DNA of 64,000 nucleotides from positions 1-64,000 of the forward strand of contig NZ_JAUSUH010000001.1 of NCBI RefSeq assembly GCF_030813595.1, read 5' to 3'. Within the stretch, counting starts at the first letter, position 1, and each line of letters begins with the position of its first letter. Shown here in pieces: positions 34,265-45,381 of the stretch. The position numbers and the translations under genes are program-made. The notes beneath the pieces were generated by a model, which did no database searches, was not told where the DNA came from, and saw nothing but the letters and a program-made list of their open reading frames with translations. This stretch comes from Ancylobacter vacuolatus (GTDB lineage Bacteria; Pseudomonadota; Alphaproteobacteria; Rhizobiales; Xanthobacteraceae).

Positions 34265-34744
34265 TCAGTCGACCAGTTCGATCTTGTGCTCGTAATGGCC
34301 GGCATCGCGGCGCGTGGTGGTCATCTGCCCGCGCTTGCCGATGAAGCGGCCGGTGCCGCCGACGATGGCGCGCACCTGCGGGGCATCGACGACCATCTCG
34401 CCGGCGCCCACGGCGTAGACCGAGCGTCCGGCAATCACCAGCGTATCGGTGCCGCCGAAATCCAGCACGATGTCGGCGAGGCGGTCGAAGAACTTGTCCT
34501 TGTCACCGTCGGGCACGTCCACCGTGGTGATGAGGCCGCTCATCGTGCCCTTCTTGCCGTCCGGGGTGGTGAAGCCGGCCTCGAAGGCCAGCATGTCGCC
34601 ATGCGAGGCGCCCGCCTTGCCGAGGTCGATATGGACCAGTTCCGGCTTGTCCTGGATGACGGCGAAGGTCTCGCCGGCCTGTGCGGCGGCGGTGGTGAGC
34701 AGCAGGGCGGAGAGAAGGCCCGCCAGCGGAGAGAGACTGTTCAT
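34265..34744 (-). CDS. Secreted allene-oxide-cyclase/dirigent-like barrel protein, function unknown
   Basis: The 159-residue precursor has a signal peptide (about 1-23, TTAAAQAGE). The mature part has the pattern of the allene oxide cyclase-like (AOC) barrel: ASHGDMLAFEAGFTTPDGKK, GTMSGLITTVDVP, VVDAPQVRAIVGGTGRFIGK and RGQMTTTRRDAGHYEHKIEL. In bacteria, AOC-barrel proteins are mostly uncharacterised; plant relatives direct radical coupling (dirigent) or cyclise oxylipins. It lies divergent (234 bp gap) from the quinoprotein gene. Function unknown; the fold assignment is by motif resemblance. Confidence 0.65.
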   Translation of the reverse strand: MNSLSPLAGLLSALLLTTAAAQAGETFAVIQDKPELVHIDLGKAGASHGDMLAFEAGFTTPDGKKGTMSGLITTVDVPDGDKDKFFDRLADIVLDFGGTDTLVIAGRSVYAVGAGEMVVDAPQVRAIVGGTGRFIGKRGQMTTTRRDAGHYEHKIELVD

Positions 34745-34977: not shown

Positions 34978-36978
34978 ATGCGTCGTCGCGACTTTCTGGC
35001 CGGGGCCGGCGTCATCGGGCTCGGCCTTCCGCTCATCGCCCGTGCCGCCTTCGCGCAGACTCCCGCCTCCGCGGCCGCGCCCGCCGACCAGAAGGTGGCG
35101 CGGCTGGCGATCTATCCCCCGCTCGGCATCTGCCGCGTCGGCAGCAGCGCGGAATTCTTCTACGCGCCAGAGGTTCCCGGCCTGCCGGCCCTGGCCGATG
35201 GCGCCTACAAGGACGGGCGCGACAAGCTGAAGAAGCAGGCGCAGCGCTTCCGCGTCTATGCCTTCAACGCCGCCGGCGAGGTGCTGCGGGAAGTAACCGC
35301 CCATGAGGCGACCATCGAATGGTCGGTGCATGTGGCCAACACCAAGGGCGCCTGGTACGGCTTCAACAACCCGCTCGACAATGGCGAGCTGGCGCCGGGC
35401 TTGCCGGGAGGGCCGCGCAACCAGGCGATCACCGATTGGGCGCAGCGCGCGAAGATGCTGGTCATCGACCCCGGCCCGCAGGCCATTTCCGGTCGCGGCC
35501 TGAATCTCGCCGGCGACGACCCGGCCCATGCGATGGTGGGCGAGTTCTGGGGCCGCGAGCGGGTGCGGCTCGCCTCGCTCGGCACTGATACGCAGGGCCG
35601 ACTGGTGGTGTTCCCCGGCGACGGGGTGGCGAAATCGGCCATTCCGAACAACCCGATCACCAATTTCTCCGACAATGATGGCTGGTGCGACGATTGGTGC
35701 GACGGCCCGGTGGAGGCGCGCGTCACCTTCGCCGATGGCCGCATGCTGGAGGCAGAAAACGCCTGGGTCGCCAGCTGCGGCCCGGATTTCGCGCCGGAAA
35801 TCCCGCCCTTCGTCTCGCTCTATGACGTGATGCGCGATGTCGCGTTCGATGCCGGCTGGCTGCCGGAGACGACGGCACCCTATTCCTTCCGGCGCGACAT
35901 CTACCCCTTCTTCCGCGCGCTGGCGCTGATGCAGTGGGTCGCCGCCGCCGGGGCGATGGCCGGGCAATATGTCGAGGTCGGCGATTTCAGCGATCCCGCC
36001 TATATGCGCCGCCTCGCCGATCCCTCGCCGGAACAGGCGGCGCTGCGCGCCTCGGTATTCGCTGCCTTCCGCGACCCGGAAAAAGACGTGTCGGTCGAGC
36101 CGGAACAGCAGTTCAAGCTGCCCTACATGCTTGGCGACGGGGTCAACTATGCCGGCTCGCCGCTGCGCTGGTTCCGCATTCCCGCGCGCCAATATGCCCT
36201 GCTCAAGGCGTGGGCGGAGGGCAATTTTGTTGCCGATCTCGACCCGGACGCGCCTGAGCCGGTGATCGGCTTCGAGCAGATTCCGCTGGCGCAGCAGCCC
36301 GAGGCGCTCACCCGCGCCGCGCTCGCCCCGTGCTCGGGCGGCGCCTTCCATCCCGGGGTGGAACTGACATGGGTGCTGCGGCACAAGGAGCTGTTTCGCG
36401 GGCCGTTCCGCATCGCCCGGTCGGACAAGCGCGATCCCCGCCTGATCCAGAATCTCGGCCTGCTGCTGACGCCGGAAAAGGCCTTTGCCGGCTATGGCGA
36501 TACCCCGCCCGCCGTGGCACCGCAAATGCCGGGCGATCTCACCCGCTGGATGGGCCTGCCCTGGCAGTGCGACGCCTTCAGCTGCCAGCAGGTGCAGTTC
36601 TCGCATGATTTCGTCAACGCCACCTGGTGGCCGGCGCTGCTGCCGATCGACGTGCTGCCGGAGATCAATTATCGCGGCGTGCTCAACAAGAACCTGCCGG
36701 CCGAGGAGCGGATCAAGATGTTCGGCGCCCGCGTGGCGTGGGCGCGCGGCGCCGCGGGCATCGGCTACCACGCCAATGCCAGCTACACCGACGGGCTCAA
36801 CCGGATGATCTATTTGTGGGAGCGCATGGGCGTGGTGGTCAGCCGGCCCGGTCCCACCGATGAAGGGCGGCCAAAGGGCATACCCGAAACGCTTTTCGTC
36901 GAGATCGACCGTGGCTCGATGGACCTTATGCTGAACGGCGCGCCCGCTCCGGGCCCGTTCGCCCCCGACGATCTCTGA
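34978..36978 (+). CDS. LodA/GoxA-family CTQ-dependent amino-acid oxidase, Tat-exported
   Basis: The 666-residue protein belongs to the L-lysine epsilon-oxidase/glycine oxidase family. The cysteine-tryptophylquinone precursors appear to be present: Cys452 in APCSGGAFHPGVELTW (family Cys of C-S-G-G-x-F-x-P-G) and Trp529 in GLPWQCDAFSC. Other family regions include the N-terminal DQKVARLAIYPPLGICRVGS and SDNDGWCDDWCDGPV. It begins MRRRDFLAGAGVIGL, a Tat signal with RRxF; the cleavage is probably after AAFAQ. Members oxidise amines or amino acids with O2, making H2O2 and ammonia. Its flavoprotein partner follows 7 bp later. Substrate unknown. Confidence 0.85.
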   Translation: MRRRDFLAGAGVIGLGLPLIARAAFAQTPASAAAPADQKVARLAIYPPLGICRVGSSAEFFYAPEVPGLPALADGAYKDGRDKLKKQAQRFRVYAFNAAGEVLREVTAHEATIEWSVHVANTKGAWYGFNNPLDNGELAPGLPGGPRNQAITDWAQRAKMLVIDPGPQAISGRGLNLAGDDPAHAMVGEFWGRERVRLASLGTDTQGRLVVFPGDGVAKSAIPNNPITNFSDNDGWCDDWCDGPVEARVTFADGRMLEAENAWVASCGPDFAPEIPPFVSLYDVMRDVAFDAGWLPETTAPYSFRRDIYPFFRALALMQWVAAAGAMAGQYVEVGDFSDPAYMRRLADPSPEQAALRASVFAAFRDPEKDVSVEPEQQFKLPYMLGDGVNYAGSPLRWFRIPARQYALLKAWAEGNFVADLDPDAPEPVIGFEQIPLAQQPEALTRAALAPCSGGAFHPGVELTWVLRHKELFRGPFRIARSDKRDPRLIQNLGLLLTPEKAFAGYGDTPPAVAPQMPGDLTRWMGLPWQCDAFSCQQVQFSHDFVNATWWPALLPIDVLPEINYRGVLNKNLPAEERIKMFGARVAWARGAAGIGYHANASYTDGLNRMIYLWERMGVVVSRPGPTDEGRPKGIPETLFVEIDRGSMDLMLNGAPAPGPFAPDDL

Positions 36979-36985
36979 CCGGGCG

Positions 36986-38074
36986 GTGGCGCGGGCAGGG
37001 CTGGTCATCGCCGGCACCGGCCTCGCCGGCATGGCGGCAGCGATAACGGCGGCGCAGGCGGGCGTGGAGGTGCGGCTTCTGGGTCCGCCGCCGGCGGCCG
37101 GAGATCGCGTCGGCGACACGCTGTCGGCCGCGGGGTCGGCGGCACTCGCGGCGCTCGGCATGGAGGATCTTCTCGTCGAGGGACCGCACCGCCCTCATCT
37201 CGTCACCCATGCCGCCTGGGGCCTGCCGGTGCTGGCCCAGCGCCACGCCGCCGCCCAGCCGGAAGGCGGTGGCCATATTCTCCAGCGCGCGGCGTTCGAG
37301 GCCGCGCTGTTCTGGCGCGTTCGGGCGCTGGGCGTCGCCGTCCAGCCCGCGCGAGCGGTGGCGATGGCGCGCGAGGGCGCACGCTGGCGGGTGGCGCTCG
37401 ACACCGGTGGCGAGATGGAGGCGGACGGCGTCATCGACGCCACCGGCCGCGCCGCCGCGCTGGCCCGCGGCCATTCGCGGCATTTCCGCGCCGACCGGCT
37501 GGTGGCCGCCTGGCAGTTCATCGCCCGCAGCGACCATGAGGTCGAGCCCTCCCGTGCCAGCCTGATCGAGGCGGTGGAGGGCGGCTGGTGGTATGGCTGC
37601 CTGCTGCCGGACGAGCGCCTGAGCCTCGCCTTCTTCTCCGACCCCGACCTGTTGCCGCGCGGCCTGTCGCGCGATCTGGCGCGCTGGCGCGCGCTGACGG
37701 ACGAGACGGTTTTCATTCGCCGCTGGCTTGAGAGCGCAAGCTTCGACCTTGTCGCGCCGCCCCGGCTCGCCTCCGCCGCGACGACGTGGCTGGCGCCGGC
37801 CGCCGGGCCGGGCTGGGCCGCCGCCGGGGATGCCGCCTGCGCCTTCGATCCCCTGTCCTCACATGGCATGGCGACGGCGCTGTGGACCGGGCGCCGCGCC
37901 GCGCTGGCGCTGATCGCCGCCGGCAATGGGGAGAAGCAGGCGCTCGCCGCCTATGCCGGCGAGATGGCCGGGGCGGTGACGGATTTCCTCCTCCAGCGCG
38001 AGCGGGTCTATGGCGCCGAGCGGCGCTGGCGCGAGGCGCCGTTCTGGAAGCGGCGGCGCGGCGCGGCGGATTGA
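36986..38074 (+). CDS. LodB-like FAD-dependent oxidoreductase (quinone-cofactor maturation partner)
   Basis: A 362-residue flavoprotein: FAD-binding GTGLAGMAAAITAAQAGVEV at the N terminus, DGVIDATGRAAA, and GDAACAFDPLSSHGMATALW near the C terminus, all typical of tryptophan-halogenase-like FAD monooxygenases. In Marinomonas, LodB is needed to generate the CTQ cofactor of LodA. Position directly after the LodA-like gene (7 bp) supports the same role. The start is GTG (36986). It carries no export signal, so cofactor formation would occur before Tat export. The stop is 7 bp from the convergent cytochrome gene. Confidence 0.85.
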   Translation: MARAGLVIAGTGLAGMAAAITAAQAGVEVRLLGPPPAAGDRVGDTLSAAGSAALAALGMEDLLVEGPHRPHLVTHAAWGLPVLAQRHAAAQPEGGGHILQRAAFEAALFWRVRALGVAVQPARAVAMAREGARWRVALDTGGEMEADGVIDATGRAAALARGHSRHFRADRLVAAWQFIARSDHEVEPSRASLIEAVEGGWWYGCLLPDERLSLAFFSDPDLLPRGLSRDLARWRALTDETVFIRRWLESASFDLVAPPRLASAATTWLAPAAGPGWAAAGDAACAFDPLSSHGMATALWTGRRAALALIAAGNGEKQALAAYAGEMAGAVTDFLLQRERVYGAERRWREAPFWKRRRGAAD

Positions 38075-38081
38075 AAGGGCG

Positions 38082-38738
38082 TCAGTCCGCGGGGCAGGCG
38101 GCGCCGGTGTCGACCCAGGCCTGGGCCAGCGCCTTGGCCTCCTTCTGCGTGCCCGGCGCCGGCGTGCGCCCGGGCCCCGGCGCCCAGCCCCAGCCGACGA
38201 GGCTGTCATCGCCGATATGGTGGACGAGATCGGCCAGCGAGCGGCCGCCATTGGTCGCCGGGTTCTTGATCTGGGCGCAGAGCTGGGCGACCGTGCGGCC
38301 CTCGAACGCCATTTCGCGCGGGGCGAGGAACCACGGGTCATGCCCCGGCATGCGCGCGGGATCGTAATTGGTTGCCTGGTGGCAGGTGGAGCAGCGCAGC
38401 GCCGCCAGCCCCTTGCCATCCGCGCCGCGATAGACCGGCGGCTGGTGCAGGCGCTGGCTGTCGCCCTGCAGCGGTCGGTCGGCGACGGGGTGGCAATTGA
38501 CGCAGCGCGGGCTGGTGAGCACCCGGCCGAGCTCGGTGAACAGCGCCGCCGAACGGGTGGCCGGGTCCTTGATGCTGTCGAAGCTGGCGGGCGGCGCCAG
38601 CCCCTCGGAGGCGGCGCCGGAAACCGGGGCGGGGGCCATTAGCGCCATCAGCAGCCCGGCGGCAAGGCCGGCCGCGCCTGTCGAGGCGATGAGGCTGGGC
38701 AGGCGCAGAAGGAACATCATCGCCGGTCGCCCCGTCAC
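38082..38738 (-). CDS. Di-haem c-type cytochrome subunit of the Mo hydroxylase
   Basis: A 218-residue protein with an N-terminal signal/anchor ([20 protein letters not shown]), and two haem motifs CVNCH (79-83) and CSTCH (116-120). In aldehyde/nicotinate-type periplasmic Mo hydroxylases, a cytochrome subunit takes electrons from the 2Fe-2S subunit to the respiratory chain. The start is GTG at 38738, which overlaps the upstream TGA (GTGA); ATG 38720/38717 is the alternative. Third gene of the oxidase operon. The region after the second haem holds many Pro/Gly but no third CxxCH. Confidence 0.85.
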
Positions 38739-39250
38739 AGCAGATAGCGGGAGGGTTCGGCGAGCACGACGTCGCGAACCGCCTCATGATAGCGGACATA
38801 GCCCGAGCACCGGCACAGATGCCCGTCCAGCGCGTCGAGGATGGCCTGTTCGAGGCCCGCGCGGGGAATTGGCGCCGCCTCCAGCCGCTCCAGCAGCACC
38901 TGCGCCTCGTTGAGGAAGCCGGCGGTGCAATAGCCGCACTGGAAGGCGTAATGGGCGACGAACGCCCTTTGCAGCGCGGTGAGCTGGCCGGCCTTGGCGT
39001 GGCCTTCCACCGTGCGGATATGGGTGCCGTTGAAGCTCACCGCCGGCGCGACGCAGGTCGGTTGCGTGGTGCGGGTGCCGGCGGGGTCGTCGACAATGAC
39101 CACGCAGCTCAGGCACTGGGCGGCGCCGCAGCCGAACTTGGTGCCGGTCATGCCCAGCACCTCGCGCAGGAAATCGTTCATCGACAGATCGTCGCGAACC
39201 TCGATCGGCCCGTGCGGCGTGCCGTTGATGGTGAGCGAAAGCGCGGTCAT
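38735..39250 (-). CDS. 2Fe-2S subunit of a xanthine-dehydrogenase-family Mo hydroxylase
   Basis: The 171-residue protein has the plant-type ferredoxin half with Cys41, Cys46, Cys49 (CGAAQCLSC) and Cys66, and the C-terminal helical 2Fe-2S half with Cys105, Cys108 (QCGYCTAG), Cys146 and Cys148 (CRCSGY). This is the small subunit found in carbon-monoxide-dehydrogenase/isoquinoline-oxidoreductase-type enzymes. ATG overlaps the Mo subunit stop by four bases (ATGA) and the cytochrome gene start overlaps its own stop, so the three genes are translationally coupled. No FAD-subunit gene is present, consistent with the cytochrome as acceptor. Confidence 0.94.
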
Positions 39251-42018
39251 GCGATCACCTTGCGCAGCATGGCCGGCGTCACCGGCAGCGACTGGAAGCG
39301 GTGGCCGGTGGCGTCATAAATGGCGTTGAGCAGCGCCGGCACCACAGGGATCATCACCACCTCCGCCATGCCCTTGGGCGGCTCCTTTGGCGAGACCGGC
39401 GGCAGCACCTCGATCTGGAGATGGTGCAGCGGCAGATCGGAGGCGCGGGCGATCACATAGTCGCCGAGATTCCACTGGCCGTTGCCGGGGCCGTCCTCGA
39501 AAGGCGGCAGGTTCTCCAGCAGCGCGTAGCCGACCCCCATGGCGAAGCCGCCCTGCGCCTGGCCTTCCACCAGCTCCGGCACCAGAACCTCGCCGCACTC
39601 GAACACGCTATAGGCCTGGGCGATGCGGATCTCGCCACCCGGCACGCTGATCTCGACCCGCACCGCTGTGCCGCAGGAGGAGGTGAAGGCGGTGCCGATG
39701 CGGTTGTAGTCGGTGGGCGGGAAGAACACGAAGCTGCGGTCGATCACCTCGAACGGCCCGTCACCCTGGCGCACCGCCAGCGCGTCGATATCGGCCGCCC
39801 AGTCCAGGCCGCCCAGCTTGAACGCCGCCTGCGCCCACGCCCAGCGCGAGAAGGCGTGCGCCATCGCTCCGGTAATGCCCTTGAGCGCATGGGCCCGCGC
39901 GGCGATCGCGGTCTGCGCCAGTGGCGGCAGGCCGGACATGATGAGGAACCCGTCCTGCCAGAACGCTTCCTCCGCCAGGAATTCACGGGGATCGCCGGCC
40001 TTGATGCCCCAGAGGTCGAGCGCGGCGGGCCAGAGGCCGAAGCGGAAGATGATCCGCGCCGCCTCTGCCGGTGCCTGGGTGCTGACATGGGCGCCGATCG
40101 AGGCGCTGGTGGCCGAGCTGATCGCCGGCACCCAGCGCGGGTTCTTCGCCGCTGCATCCTGCTCGGCCTGCGTCATCGCATAGGGATCGCCCGAGGTGAC
40201 GAGGCCGAGCGCGTCATACATGTCGATGCGGGCGACCGTCACCGCGTCGGCGCTCTGGCCGAGAATGGCCGCCACGCGCCGCGCGGTGGCGGTGCCGATG
40301 CCATTGCCCATCTCCACCGCATCTGACTGCAGGGTGACGCGGCCATCCGGCCCGATCTCGACCCGCCCGAGCGAGCAGTCCGCCCCGGTGCCGTAATCCT
40401 TGGTGCAGCAGGCGACCCCGGTGCCGACGCGCACGCCGGGAGCGGCGGCCGCCTTCTTCGCCGCGCGGTCGCGCCAGATCGGGTGGGCTTCCAGCTTGTC
40501 GAGGATCTCCGGCGTGCGGACCGACACCGTCCAGGGATTGCCGGTCATGGTGCGCCCGCCGGCGGTGAGCAGATTGCGCCGGCGCAGGTCGATCGGGTCG
40601 ATCTTCAGCGTGGTCGCCGCCTCGTCGATCAGCGTCTCGATCGCGGTCATGGTTTGCAGCGTGCCATAGCCGCGCATCGAGCCGGCTGGGACGCCGCGCG
40701 TGTGCTCGGCCACCGTGGTCACGTCGACCTTGGGAATGTCGTAGATGCCGGCGGCGGCGGTGGCGCCGACCACGGCGACGCTGGGCGAATAATTGGCGAG
40801 GCCGCCGCCATCGAGCACATGGTCGGCGGCAAAGGCAGTGATGCGGCCGGTGGCGCGGTCAACGCCGATCTGCGAGCGCATCTGGAAGGCGTGGCGCTTC
40901 ACCCCGCCCTGGAACTGCTGGAAGCGATCCTGCGTCAGCCGGATCGGCTTGCCCGGCAGGAACAGCGCGGCGAGGCCGGCATAGAGCGGGAAGGGCGTGT
41001 GGTCGCGCCCACCAAAGCCGCCGCCGAGCGAGGCGAAGTCGAGGTCCAGCCGCGTCGGCCGCAGCGTGGCGGGGGCCTGCGCCAGCATGTAGTCGAGCGC
41101 TTCCGCCGCCTCGAAGGGCGATTGCACGCCGAGCACGAGGTGCAGCGCGCCGGCGGCTTCTTCGTACCAGCCGAGTCCGGCTTCCGGCTCCAGGAACATC
41201 GGGTCGACCGACTGGGTGTTGAAGGCGCGGTCGAGCACCAGCAGGTCGGGATTGTCCGCGGCCAGCAAAGCGCGGATCTCCTCGCCATAGGTCGCGCCCT
41301 TGGCGTACTCGCCGCCCTGTGCGGTGGGCAGCGGCTTCCAGATCGGCCGGCCGCCGCCCTCGGTGAAGCCCGGGCTGATCCAGCCTTCCTGCAGCGGCGA
41401 GTAGATGTCGGGCGCGTCCGGCGTCGGGCCGGCGATGCGGGTGAAGCGCAGTGCGGCATAGTTCGGCCCGGTGCGCGGGCCGGTCTCGGCGCCGAAGCGC
41501 ACCAGCGCGCTGTTCTCGCGAAAGGCGATCCGCGCCCGGTCATAGGCGTCGAAGCCCTCGAACAGCAGCAGCGCCACCGGCTGGCCGAGATAAAGCGGCG
41601 TCTGGCCGATGGGACAGAACAGGTCGCCGGCATAGAAGGGAGGCGTGCGCAGCGCACTCGCCGCGACATCGGCGGCGCCCACCACCTTGGTCGGCTGCGC
41701 CTGCGGCGGGAGAGCGTCGAGGTTCAGCCCTTGATAGACATGGCTGGCATCGCGCGCCCGCACCAGCAGCGCATGGGCTGTTGTGGCCGGCCAGCCCTCC
41801 ATGTCGGCGGCGCGGAAATCCGAGGCGTAGAGCTTGGCGCCTGTGACCTTGGCGATGCCGTCGATGCGGGCGCGGCCGGTCAGCCCCGCATTGGCGCGGC
41901 CTGGCAGGGTCTGCGTCGCCTCGAAGGGCAGGGCGGCGGCCGGCGAAAGCCGGCTGAGGCCGAGGGTGATGCCGCTCGCGGCCACCCAGCGGAAGAGCTC
42001 ACGGCGTGTTGGCTGCAT
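39247..42018 (-). CDS. Molybdopterin-binding large subunit of a periplasmic Mo hydroxylase
   Basis: The 923-residue catalytic subunit starts with a Tat signal (TRRELFRWVAASGITLG). It holds the molybdopterin-binding regions of the xanthine dehydrogenase/aldehyde oxidase family: SLGGGFGGRDHTPFPL, VKRHAFQMRSQIGVD, GSMRGYGTLQTMTAIE, VEMGNGIGTATARRVAAILG and EGQAQGGFAMGVGYAL. The Tat signal and cytochrome partner match the isoquinoline 1-oxidoreductase/nicotinate dehydrogenase group, which hydroxylate heterocycles or oxidise aldehydes. Substrate not predictable. It is the first gene of the operon, 237 bp from the divergent multicopper oxidase gene. No XdhC-like maturase is encoded here, so it must be elsewhere. 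Confidence 0.92.
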   Translation of the reverse strand: MQPTRRELFRWVAASGITLGLSRLSPAAALPFEATQTLPGRANAGLTGRARIDGIAKVTGAKLYASDFRAADMEGWPATTAHALLVRARDASHVYQGLNLDALPPQAQPTKVVGAADVAASALRTPPFYAGDLFCPIGQTPLYLGQPVALLLFEGFDAYDRARIAFRENSALVRFGAETGPRTGPNYAALRFTRIAGPTPDAPDIYSPLQEGWISPGFTEGGGRPIWKPLPTAQGGEYAKGATYGEEIRALLAADNPDLLVLDRAFNTQSVDPMFLEPEAGLGWYEEAAGALHLVLGVQSPFEAAEALDYMLAQAPATLRPTRLDLDFASLGGGFGGRDHTPFPLYAGLAALFLPGKPIRLTQDRFQQFQGGVKRHAFQMRSQIGVDRATGRITAFAADHVLDGGGLANYSPSVAVVGATAAAGIYDIPKVDVTTVAEHTRGVPAGSMRGYGTLQTMTAIETLIDEAATTLKIDPIDLRRRNLLTAGGRTMTGNPWTVSVRTPEILDKLEAHPIWRDRAAKKAAAAPGVRVGTGVACCTKDYGTGADCSLGRVEIGPDGRVTLQSDAVEMGNGIGTATARRVAAILGQSADAVTVARIDMYDALGLVTSGDPYAMTQAEQDAAAKNPRWVPAISSATSASIGAHVSTQAPAEAARIIFRFGLWPAALDLWGIKAGDPREFLAEEAFWQDGFLIMSGLPPLAQTAIAARAHALKGITGAMAHAFSRWAWAQAAFKLGGLDWAADIDALAVRQGDGPFEVIDRSFVFFPPTDYNRIGTAFTSSCGTAVRVEISVPGGEIRIAQAYSVFECGEVLVPELVEGQAQGGFAMGVGYALLENLPPFEDGPGNGQWNLGDYVIARASDLPLHHLQIEVLPPVSPKEPPKGMAEVVMIPVVPALLNAIYDATGHRFQSLPVTPAMLRKVIA

Positions 42019-42255: not shown

Positions 42256-45200
42256 GTGAAGCGTATTGTTCGTTGGGCCGCGTCGGCGGCCATCGTCGCC
42301 TTGCTTGTGCCGTCGTTCGGCGCGGGGCCGGTCCTCGCCCAGACCTACCAGCCGCCCGAGTTTCGCGAGCCGGTGGTGCTCTCCAGCGTCGATGGCGTGC
42401 TGGAAGTCACGCTCACCGCCCATCAGGGCGAAGCCACGCTCGACACCTCGCCCGTGCCTGTCAAGAACACGCTGCTCTATGGCTATGCGCTGGTGCGCGG
42501 CAAGGCCTCCAACGGCGTGAACGCCAACCGCGACAATTATCCGGCGCCGACGCTGCAGGTGTTTCCCGGCGAGAAGCTGATCATCCACTACGAGAACGGC
42601 CTCGCCGGGCTCGACATTCGCGACTTCTACGATCCGCGCTACACCGCCGTGGGCGGGGAGGTGCCGGTCTATCCCCCGCAGCTCACCGTCTCGCCGGTGA
42701 ACCTGCACACGCATGGCCTGCATGTCAGCCCGAAGTCGAATTCCGACAATGTGCTGCTGCACATGCCGCCGGGCACGGTGAACACCTATGTCTATGACGT
42801 GCCGCGAAACATGCCGCACGGCATCTACTGGTATCATCCGCATCTGCACACGCTCACCTCAGCCCATGTCTATCTCGGCCTTGCCGGCATGCTCGCGATC
42901 GGGCGGACGGACGGCAACCTGCCTGTCGTGACGCAGAAATCGATTCCCGTGCGCAACATGGCGCTGCAGTATAATTTCGTGTTCGACCGCACCGGGCCGG
43001 AGCCGAGCTTCAACAATGCCAGCTGGCCGCAATTCATCAGCACGCTGACATCGCCCCTTGAGGGCGAGCTGGCCGCCGGCACCTATCGCCCCATTCTGGC
43101 ACCGGTGAACTTTGCCGGCTCGGCAAAAGGCACGCGCTTCGCCACCGTCTGGTATTCCGGCCCGCTGTCGATCCATAATATGCGCGGGCGCACCCAGTTC
43201 ATCCCGAACAATCTGCAAAGCTTCACCGCCGCCTCGGGACCCGAGGGCAACGTGCCGGCCGACCCGGCGCTGCCGGACCATCTGCGCGATATCCAGTTCA
43301 CGGTGAACGGCCAGTTCCAGCCGGTGCTGCGCGGCAGGCCGGGCCAGACCGAGATCTGGGTTCTCGCGAACATCAGCGACATGGCCTATATGAGCGTGCG
43401 CCTGACCGAGACGGCGACCGGGCGCCACCCGAAGATCGCCATTGTCGGCCAGGACGGCAATCCGAGCCCCTCCGTCCGCTATCCCGTCGAGGAAAGCGGC
43501 ACCCGCCTCGTCATCCCCCCGGCCTCGCGCTTCGCCATTGCGGTGACGCTGCCGCTGGAGGGCGAATTGGTGCTCGACATGCCCGCGCGCGGCGGCGGCG
43601 CCCGCACCGAGAACGCCCCGGGCATCCTCTACACCAGCAACGGCACGCAGAACCCGCCCGCCGTGCTCGGCACGCTCAGCGTCGCGCCTTCGGCGGTGAG
43701 CTATTATGACGGCTTCTTCCTGTTCCCCACCCAGAAGCTGATGAGCGCGGTGGTGGAAGGCGAAAAGGGCGAGAGCACGCCCTTTGTCGAAGGCCAGCCC
43801 GTCGGCGCCTTCTCCTCCTTCGACGACCTGTCCAAGGTGACGCCTGACGTCACCCGCAACATCCTCATCAATGGCGGCTTCCTCAACGACCTCGCCAGCA
43901 AGGCCGACCCGAAATCCTTCATCTACGCCTTTGACAGCGGCGCCTTCCCAAATGTGCCGCTGATGCAGCCCCGGCTGGATTCGGTCGAGGAATGGGTGTT
44001 CCGAAACGAAAACAATGACGAGCACCCCATCCATGTGCACGTCAACGACTTCCAGATCATCTCCGTCTCCGATCCCACCATCGGCCAGAAGGTGGGCGTG
44101 GTGCAGCAGGGCGTCGACAACGCCAATGTGCCGGCGCCCAATCTCGGCCCCGAGGAATCGGTAATCGAGCCGGGCACCCTCACCATCCGCACCCGCTTCG
44201 AGGATTATGCCGGCCTGTTCGTCATGCATTGCCACCGGCTGAACCACGAGGACAATGGCCTGATGGCGCTGGTCAATGTCATCCCGGCGATCTCTTCCTA
44301 TGCCGTCGCCGTGCCCGGCGCGCCGGGCCGTGCCGCCACGGTGCGGGTGATGGATGGGGACAAGCTGCTGGCCACCGTGACTCCTTTCCCCGGCTATGAG
44401 GGCACGCCCAGCGTCGCCATCGGCGATGTCGATGATGATGGCATCTATGATCTCGTGGTCGGCGCCGGCCCCGGCCATGCGCCTGAGGTGGCTGTCTTTT
44501 CCGGGGCGGTCCGGCAGGGCGGCGGCCCCTTCGCCACCGAGCTGGCGCGCTTTCTCGCCTTCGACGCCGCCGCCACCGGCGGGGTGAGCGTCGCCTCGGC
44601 GCAGATCGACGGCATCACGACCGGCGACAACATCGTCGTCGGTTCCGGTCCCGGTGTGTCCAGCGAAATCCGGGTGTTCGGCTCGAAGCTGCCGGCGGTG
44701 GGCACGGCGCCGGAGCTGTTTTCGACCTTCAACCCCTTCTTTGGCGAGCGTAACGGCGTCACCCTCGCCACCGGCTTCGTCGATTTCACCACCGGCCGGC
44801 AGAGCCTCATCGCCGCGCCCGGTGCTGGCTCGCCCGCATTGGTGAAGGTGTTCGTCTTCCCGCTGCTGAAGGCGATGGAGGGCGAGATCGGCAGCCACGC
44901 GCACCGCAGCAAGGGCCCGCCGCGCCCGGTGCTGTCCACGTCCTTCACGCCGTTCGGTCCGGATTATCGCGGCGGGGTGTCGCTCGCCACCGGCTGGCTG
45001 GCCGGCGTGCTCGGCGGCGCCGAGCGCATCGTCATCGGCCAGCGGGATGGGGCTGAGGTGGCGGTGTTCTCCGCCGGCTCGGCGCTCGATGGCGGGCCGG
45101 CCATGTATCTGCACAGCGCGAGCGCCCACCAGAAGGCCGACTTCACCGAGATGGCGCGCTTCACCCCCTTCGGGGCGGACGCACGCGGGGTGAGCGTCGC

Positions 45201-45381
45201 CACGACGAGCACCACCTCGGGTGCCGATCTGCTGGTCGCCACCGCGCCCGCCGGGAGTGGGGCGAGCGTGCGCCGCTTCGCGATGGAGCGGGCCGGCGAG
45301 GGGGCGAAGACGCTGGCCGCCACGCCGCTCGGTGAGGCGAAGGTTTCGAGCGCCGGCGCCGTGGTCCTCGGCGGCGACTGA
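42256..45381 (+). CDS. Multicopper oxidase fused to a C-terminal FG-GAP-like repeat domain
   Basis: The 1041-residue precursor has a signal peptide (1-29, GPVLAQ). The N-terminal ~690 residues form a multicopper oxidase: NLHTHGLH (His151, His153), YWYHPHLH (His194, His196), EHPIHVHV (His590, 593, 595) and MHCHRLNHEDNGLM (His658, Cys659, His660, His664; axial position Leu669 followed by Met670). All four copper-binding motifs are complete. The last ~350 residues contain FG-GAP/integrin-like repeats (IGDVDDDGIYDLVVGAGPGH), a Ca-binding beta-propeller type fold. Start GTG. Probably oxidises phenols, amines or metals in the periplasm or outside. Convergent with the SDR gene by 3 bp. Confidence 0.88.
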   Translation: MKRIVRWAASAAIVALLVPSFGAGPVLAQTYQPPEFREPVVLSSVDGVLEVTLTAHQGEATLDTSPVPVKNTLLYGYALVRGKASNGVNANRDNYPAPTLQVFPGEKLIIHYENGLAGLDIRDFYDPRYTAVGGEVPVYPPQLTVSPVNLHTHGLHVSPKSNSDNVLLHMPPGTVNTYVYDVPRNMPHGIYWYHPHLHTLTSAHVYLGLAGMLAIGRTDGNLPVVTQKSIPVRNMALQYNFVFDRTGPEPSFNNASWPQFISTLTSPLEGELAAGTYRPILAPVNFAGSAKGTRFATVWYSGPLSIHNMRGRTQFIPNNLQSFTAASGPEGNVPADPALPDHLRDIQFTVNGQFQPVLRGRPGQTEIWVLANISDMAYMSVRLTETATGRHPKIAIVGQDGNPSPSVRYPVEESGTRLVIPPASRFAIAVTLPLEGELVLDMPARGGGARTENAPGILYTSNGTQNPPAVLGTLSVAPSAVSYYDGFFLFPTQKLMSAVVEGEKGESTPFVEGQPVGAFSSFDDLSKVTPDVTRNILINGGFLNDLASKADPKSFIYAFDSGAFPNVPLMQPRLDSVEEWVFRNENNDEHPIHVHVNDFQIISVSDPTIGQKVGVVQQGVDNANVPAPNLGPEESVIEPGTLTIRTRFEDYAGLFVMHCHRLNHEDNGLMALVNVIPAISSYAVAVPGAPGRAATVRVMDGDKLLATVTPFPGYEGTPSVAIGDVDDDGIYDLVVGAGPGHAPEVAVFSGAVRQGGGPFATELARFLAFDAAATGGVSVASAQIDGITTGDNIVVGSGPGVSSEIRVFGSKLPAVGTAPELFSTFNPFFGERNGVTLATGFVDFTTGRQSLIAAPGAGSPALVKVFVFPLLKAMEGEIGSHAHRSKGPPRPVLSTSFTPFGPDYRGGVSLATGWLAGVLGGAERIVIGQRDGAEVAVFSAGSALDGGPAMYLHSASAHQKADFTEMARFTPFGADARGVSVATTSTTSGADLLVATAPAGSGASVRRFAMERAGEGAKTLAATPLGEAKVSSAGAVVLGGD

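Follow-up and report, generated by a model that had tools for sequence, protein, structure and literature searches.

Does this locus encode an unusually exported member of the LodA family, and which of its residues would form the CTQ cofactor? The first-pass annotation of the window, the whole stretch of 64,000 nucleotides analysed here, had described a LodA/GoxA-type quinoprotein followed by a LodB-like flavoprotein. It took Cys452 and Trp529 for the cofactor residues and regarded the twin-arginine signal of the quinoprotein as an uncommon layout for such an enzyme. The features considered below are compiled in Table 1.

Identification of a goxAB gene pair

The two open reading frames are intact and arranged in tandem with a gap of 7 bp, and the family assignment of both proteins was borne out. 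GoxA, which starts with MRRRDFLAGAGVIGLGLPLIARAAFAQ, matched the Pfam domains LodA_N (5.8e-67) and LodA_C (9.6e-34) and scored 1101.7 bits with the NCBIfam model NF038173 (cutoff 750 bits). Because residues 2-659 aligned with positions 1-665 of the 668 of this profile, i.e. from residue 2 on, the signal peptide belongs to the model. GoxB scored 453.5 bits with NF038174, the model of the glycine oxidase maturase GoxB (cutoff 400 bits), so that a lodB-like gene adjoins goxA as it does in group II of the LodA family. Pfam flavoprotein matches of GoxB were weak and one was barely over its cutoff. The top PDB sequence matches of GoxA were the chains of PlGoxA (2e-70), followed by LodA (2e-39). An AlphaFold model of GoxA computed from a 19-sequence alignment had a mean pLDDT of 71.3 and was weakest at residues 533-556 (pLDDT <50), the region of Cys536 and Trp551. 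A fold search with this model returned PlGoxA at the top (6ubr_D, E 3.6e-36, query TM 0.68); the best LodA chain was 3wev_B (E 3.5e-31, TM 0.58).

The gene order is that of GoxA/GoxB from Marinomonas mediterranea (Marme_1655/1654; PMC3948610), where the LodA-family oxidase is likewise directly followed by the LodB-like flavoprotein. The likeness to this GoxA is drawn from its published description; the query shares 51% identity with a relative from an uncultured Marinomonas (L084). LodA/LodB of M. mediterranea (PDB 2ymw, 3weu) belong to the same family and share the CTQ residues and the maturase partner. Yet LodA is a lysine epsilon-oxidase with Cys448 in place of His458 of the window GoxA, and the window pair stayed far below the cutoffs of the LodA equivalog (NF038172; 203.2 bits, cutoff 600) and the LodB equivalog (168.2 bits, cutoff 400). 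We consider it very probable that the locus is a goxAB operon for a Tat-exported, CTQ-dependent glycine oxidase GoxA and its flavoprotein maturase GoxB.

Table 1. Features of the goxAB locus and its surroundings in window coordinates
Feature	Position	Strand	Remarks
159-aa exported-looking protein (by eye)	34265-34744	-	no Pfam or NCBIfam match
goxA, CTQ-dependent glycine oxidase	34978..36978	+	ATG, 666 aa; NF038173, Pfam, PlGoxA match
Predicted twin-arginine signal peptide, residues 1-26 (MRRRDFL...AAFA)	34978..35055	+	end placed by eye
Cys452 codon, not cofactor residue	36331..36333	+	aligns with LodA Cys442, PlGoxA Leu577
Trp529 codon, conserved, not quinone Trp	36562..36564	+	aligns with PlGoxA Trp675, not W697
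Cys536 codon, predicted CTQ cysteine	36583..36585	+	corresponds to LodA Cys516, PlGoxA Cys682
Trp551 codon, predicted CTQ tryptophan	36628..36630	+	corresponds to LodA Trp581, PlGoxA Trp697
goxB, GoxA flavoprotein maturase	36986..38074	+	GTG, 362 aa; NF038174
Cytochrome-like protein, iron-sulphur subunit and molybdenum-binding subunit, aldehyde/xanthine-dehydrogenase type	38082-42018	-	
1041-aa multicopper oxidase, long C-terminal extension	42256-45378	+	weak PhsA and CueO model matches only

Predicted residues of the CTQ cofactor

The CTQ pair of LodA is Cys516/Trp581 (PMC4417212), and in an alignment with PDB row numbering these residues correspond to Cys536 and Trp551 of the window GoxA. 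Cys516 of LodA is found in the motif PWQADFFNC and Trp581 in YWWP, these motifs contain C682 and W697 in PlGoxA, and the window GoxA reads PWQCDAFSC536 and ATWW551P. The equivalence of the WWP motifs of LodA and the window GoxA is based on a MAFFT alignment; the LodA row with W581 came from a second HMMER piece that was not significant (score -1.3) and served the LodA numbering only. Both columns were invariant in an alignment of the query and relatives from the same bacterial family (30/30 sequences including the query, drawn from 45 listed match places). We further inspected the best 79 of 547 confirmed loci, a sample that thus favours close relatives. Here the columns of Cys536 and Trp551 held Cys and Trp, respectively, in 77/79 loci each, the other two being gaps in truncated copies. 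Within these 79 loci a GoxA group of 49 (L069-L116 and L119) was separated by identity, which was at least 47.6% in the group and at most 40.5% in the other 30.

Cys452 and Trp529 are indeed present where the first-pass annotation had placed them, and both are often conserved. Cys452 is Cys in 25/30 and Trp529 is Trp in 30/30 sequences of the family alignment. In the best 79 of 547 loci the Cys452 column contains 69 Cys, 7 Leu, 1 Val and 2 gaps, all seven Leu belonging to loci of the GoxA group, and the Trp529 column contains 77 Trp and 2 gaps. However, in PlGoxA, which uses CTQ and whose structures have been solved, the position of Cys452 is taken by Leu577, and the cofactor residues of LodA align with Cys536 and Trp551. 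Thus the role assigned to the pair Cys452/Trp529 was wrong. As Tat-type signals are moreover the norm in the GoxA group (see below), we give almost no credence to the earlier reading of CTQ formed from these two residues in an unusual Tat-exported family member.

Two other candidates for the CTQ tryptophan, Trp588 and Trp614, were rejected because W581 of LodA sits in YWWP and equals Trp551; Trp588 is conserved in just 26/30 and Trp614 in 29/30 sequences. Trp614 had been favoured by a Cys-Trp spacing of 65 in L005, which equals that of LodA (516-581). The Trp614 column is occupied by Phe in a distant LodA-family protein (L003 of genome G240) and by Trp in the other 29/30; this protein keeps the CTQ residues. 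According to PMC7876137, GoxA mutated at Asp678 still has CTQ, so that conservation of this aspartate is no proof of cofactor formation. From the alignments we predict CTQ formed by Cys536 and Trp551 as the cofactor of the window GoxA.

Active site and likely substrate

GoxA converts glycine to glyoxylate and ammonia with release of H2O2. PlGoxA of Pseudoalteromonas luteoviolacea (PDB 6byw and mutants) shares with the window GoxA the fold, the CTQ positions and the five mutated active-site residues, which we took from the PDB mutant titles of the solved structures. F316, H583, D678, Y766 and H767 of PlGoxA are F230, H458, D532, Y597 and H598 of the window GoxA, all of them identical. In the best 79 of 547 loci the H598 column was His in 47/49 rows of the GoxA group, the other two being gaps where contigs are truncated; among the rows of other LodA-family proteins it was His in 0/30. 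Y597 was looser, as some loci of the GoxA group in the same sample have Leu or His instead.

Because all five residues are present, glycine is the likely substrate of the window GoxA. As the identity to PlGoxA amounts to only ~25% in the fold alignment, glycine as the substrate rests on homology. The modest identity and the differing substrates of enzymes within the LodA family (PMC4417212) would also fit a CTQ oxidase with the same export and maturation whose substrate has shifted to another amine or amino acid. A score far over the cutoff of the GoxA equivalog (1101.7 vs 750 bits) and an active site with all five PlGoxA residues argue against such a shift, which we regard as distinctly unlikely.

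Twin-arginine signal and predicted export

The segment MRRRDFLAGAGVIGLGLPLIARAAFA of GoxA matches a twin-arginine signal as judged by eye, and the signal MRRRDFL that the first-pass annotation had recognised was confirmed, the N-terminus being conserved in orthologues. Loci were counted by a strict test that asked for an RRxFL-like motif and a nearly uncharged stretch; a looser filter for RR plus a hydrophobic stretch had yielded false positives within long fusion proteins. The strict test was passed by 49/49 loci of the GoxA group and by 4/30 non-GoxA loci of the LodA family (best 79 of 547 loci). Three loci over the GoxA cutoff in a class-wide search (L052-L054) all had the Tat motif. In the 30-sequence alignment the RR columns showed RR in 24 proteins and a gap in 6; since six of the 24 lie outside the GoxA group, GoxA is not alone in having Tat-like signals. 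Five more distant proteins outside the group (L007, L008, L010, L011 and L030) start with a twin-arginine-like N-terminus, MDRRDLL or LSRRAFV, which indicates that Tat-type signals occur in other subgroups of the LodA family, too.

The Tat signal of the GoxA group is already in print, in 2013 and 2015. The prototype GoxA of Marinomonas carries a typical twin-arginine signal like that of the window GoxA and was found in the culture supernatant (PMC3948610). In group II of the LodA family the 2015 survey found a twin-arginine motif in all proteins bar three (PMC4417212), and MRRRDFL of the window GoxA is an N-terminal motif of this kind. Considering the published signals and the motif in 49/49 GoxA-group loci (best 79 of 547), the export layout is not unusual, and this part of the first-pass annotation had to be abandoned. 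In the 816-aa PDB chain of PlGoxA, residue 6 matches residue 43 of the query and no Tat signal was seen in the chain. TatC is encoded in the window organism's own genome, and the window GoxA is predicted to be exported via the Tat system.

GoxB and the proposed order of maturation and export

GoxB starts directly with the FAD-binding motif VARAGLVIAGTGLAG, and inspection by eye revealed no signal peptide on the window GoxB, in agreement with the earlier description of a maturase lacking an export signal. In 47/49 GoxA-group loci (best 79 of 547 loci) goxA is followed by a GoxB-like tblastn match, which in one of them (L108) covers a short piece only; in the remaining 2/49 the contig ends inside goxA. 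According to PMC7876137, LodB and GoxB are flavoproteins required for CTQ. The same paper reports that QHNDH, another CTQ enzyme, is modified in the cytoplasm before export and that modification of methylamine dehydrogenase follows translocation. Thus both orders exist among tryptophylquinone enzymes. QHNDH with its flavoprotein QhpG has the CTQ cofactor in common with the window pair, but differs by a small gamma subunit, radical-SAM cross-links and an ABC exporter (PMC7876137). The window GoxB scored 146.9 with the QhpG model, below the cutoff of 240.

That CTQ is completed in the cytosol and the folded GoxA exported thereafter is a reasonable inference, consistent with a GoxB that shows no signal by eye. 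In the proposed sequence of events Cys536 would be cross-linked to Trp551 and the tryptophan oxidised to give CTQ, a modification that GoxB, having no visible export signal, would complete in the cytosol. The folded, cofactor-loaded GoxA would then leave via the Tat system, and the exported enzyme would oxidise glycine to glyoxylate and ammonia, thereby releasing H2O2. GoxB might in addition act as a Tat proofreading factor that holds the GoxA precursor until CTQ is finished, which would make export conditional on maturation. The regular succession of a GoxA gene with signal and a GoxB-like gene in 47/49 loci (best 79 of 547; the other two are truncated) is compatible with this idea, and so is a window GoxB on which no signal is visible; on balance we rate such proofreading as rather unlikely.

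Neighbouring genes

The cytochrome-like neighbour has two CxxCH motifs, and none of the genes at 38082-42018 reached a specific NCBIfam cutoff. Of the 29 further genomes compared from the genus, 12 have matches to the molybdenum-binding large subunit, at 69-98% identity. On the other side of goxAB, residues 25-159 of the 159-aa protein are 94-99% identical in three same-genus genomes.

A rival reading would have GoxA work in one pathway with the molybdenum/iron-sulphur oxidoreductase, the cytochrome and the multicopper oxidase. In its favour, the cytochrome gene is convergent with goxB and lies 7 bp from its stop codon, and the large subunit of the oxidoreductase likewise has a twin-arginine-like N-terminus (TRRELF; by eye). 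However, in 20 compared regions of 11-19 kb all of the neighbours were shared only by L032 from the same genus, and L050 contributed one 47-aa piece of the multicopper oxidase and no more. Furthermore, the neighbour genes stand together without an intact goxAB in G258 and G103, again of the same genus, so that a link to GoxA is not supported. With full sharing in 1/20 regions and this independence of goxAB, the view of goxAB and its neighbours as one unit was dropped, and a common pathway appears very improbable.

Distribution and apparent loss of goxAB

The LodA_C domain (PF18417) was found in 39/296 sampled genomes of the same bacterial family, in 38 of them over the cutoff. On the reading that the 30 same-genus genomes compared all lie within this set, as their handle numbers suggest, 2/30 have the gene (G000 and G186). 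Among the matches listed, Xanthobacteraceae bacterium 501b (L071) is a 94% relative of the query. A tree of 78 sequences, from which the fragments L114 and L119 were left out, joined the two with a support of 1.0 inside the GoxA group. The GoxA group itself has a support of 0.957; values within it are uneven, with 0.402 at the node where four near relatives meet the query pair. Thalassobaculum, Alcaligenes and Marinomonas, for which group II members are described in PMC4417212, are also represented in this group of the tree, by other species. A plasmid search gave 36 records, none of more than 60% identity; 2 annotated goxA were among the 20 listed.

In the close same-genus genome G258 (L160; G258:C7:592001-611000) ~181 bp are kept, at about 2152-2332, which match window 35075-35255, and the match resumes at 38029. 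Hence goxAB appears to have been deleted in G258 while the flanks stayed.

Implications

The locus is an ordinary goxAB pair of known type. Its role is probably the production of peroxide, which may serve antimicrobial or biofilm-related functions such as have been reported in relatives. The value of the present analysis is mainly corrective: for GoxA the layout of a Tat-exported glycine oxidase is standard in the literature, and Cys536 and Trp551 are the predicted CTQ residues. Beyond that, the many Tat-bearing GoxA/GoxB pairs make a fair test bed for the question whether cofactor maturation gates Tat export.
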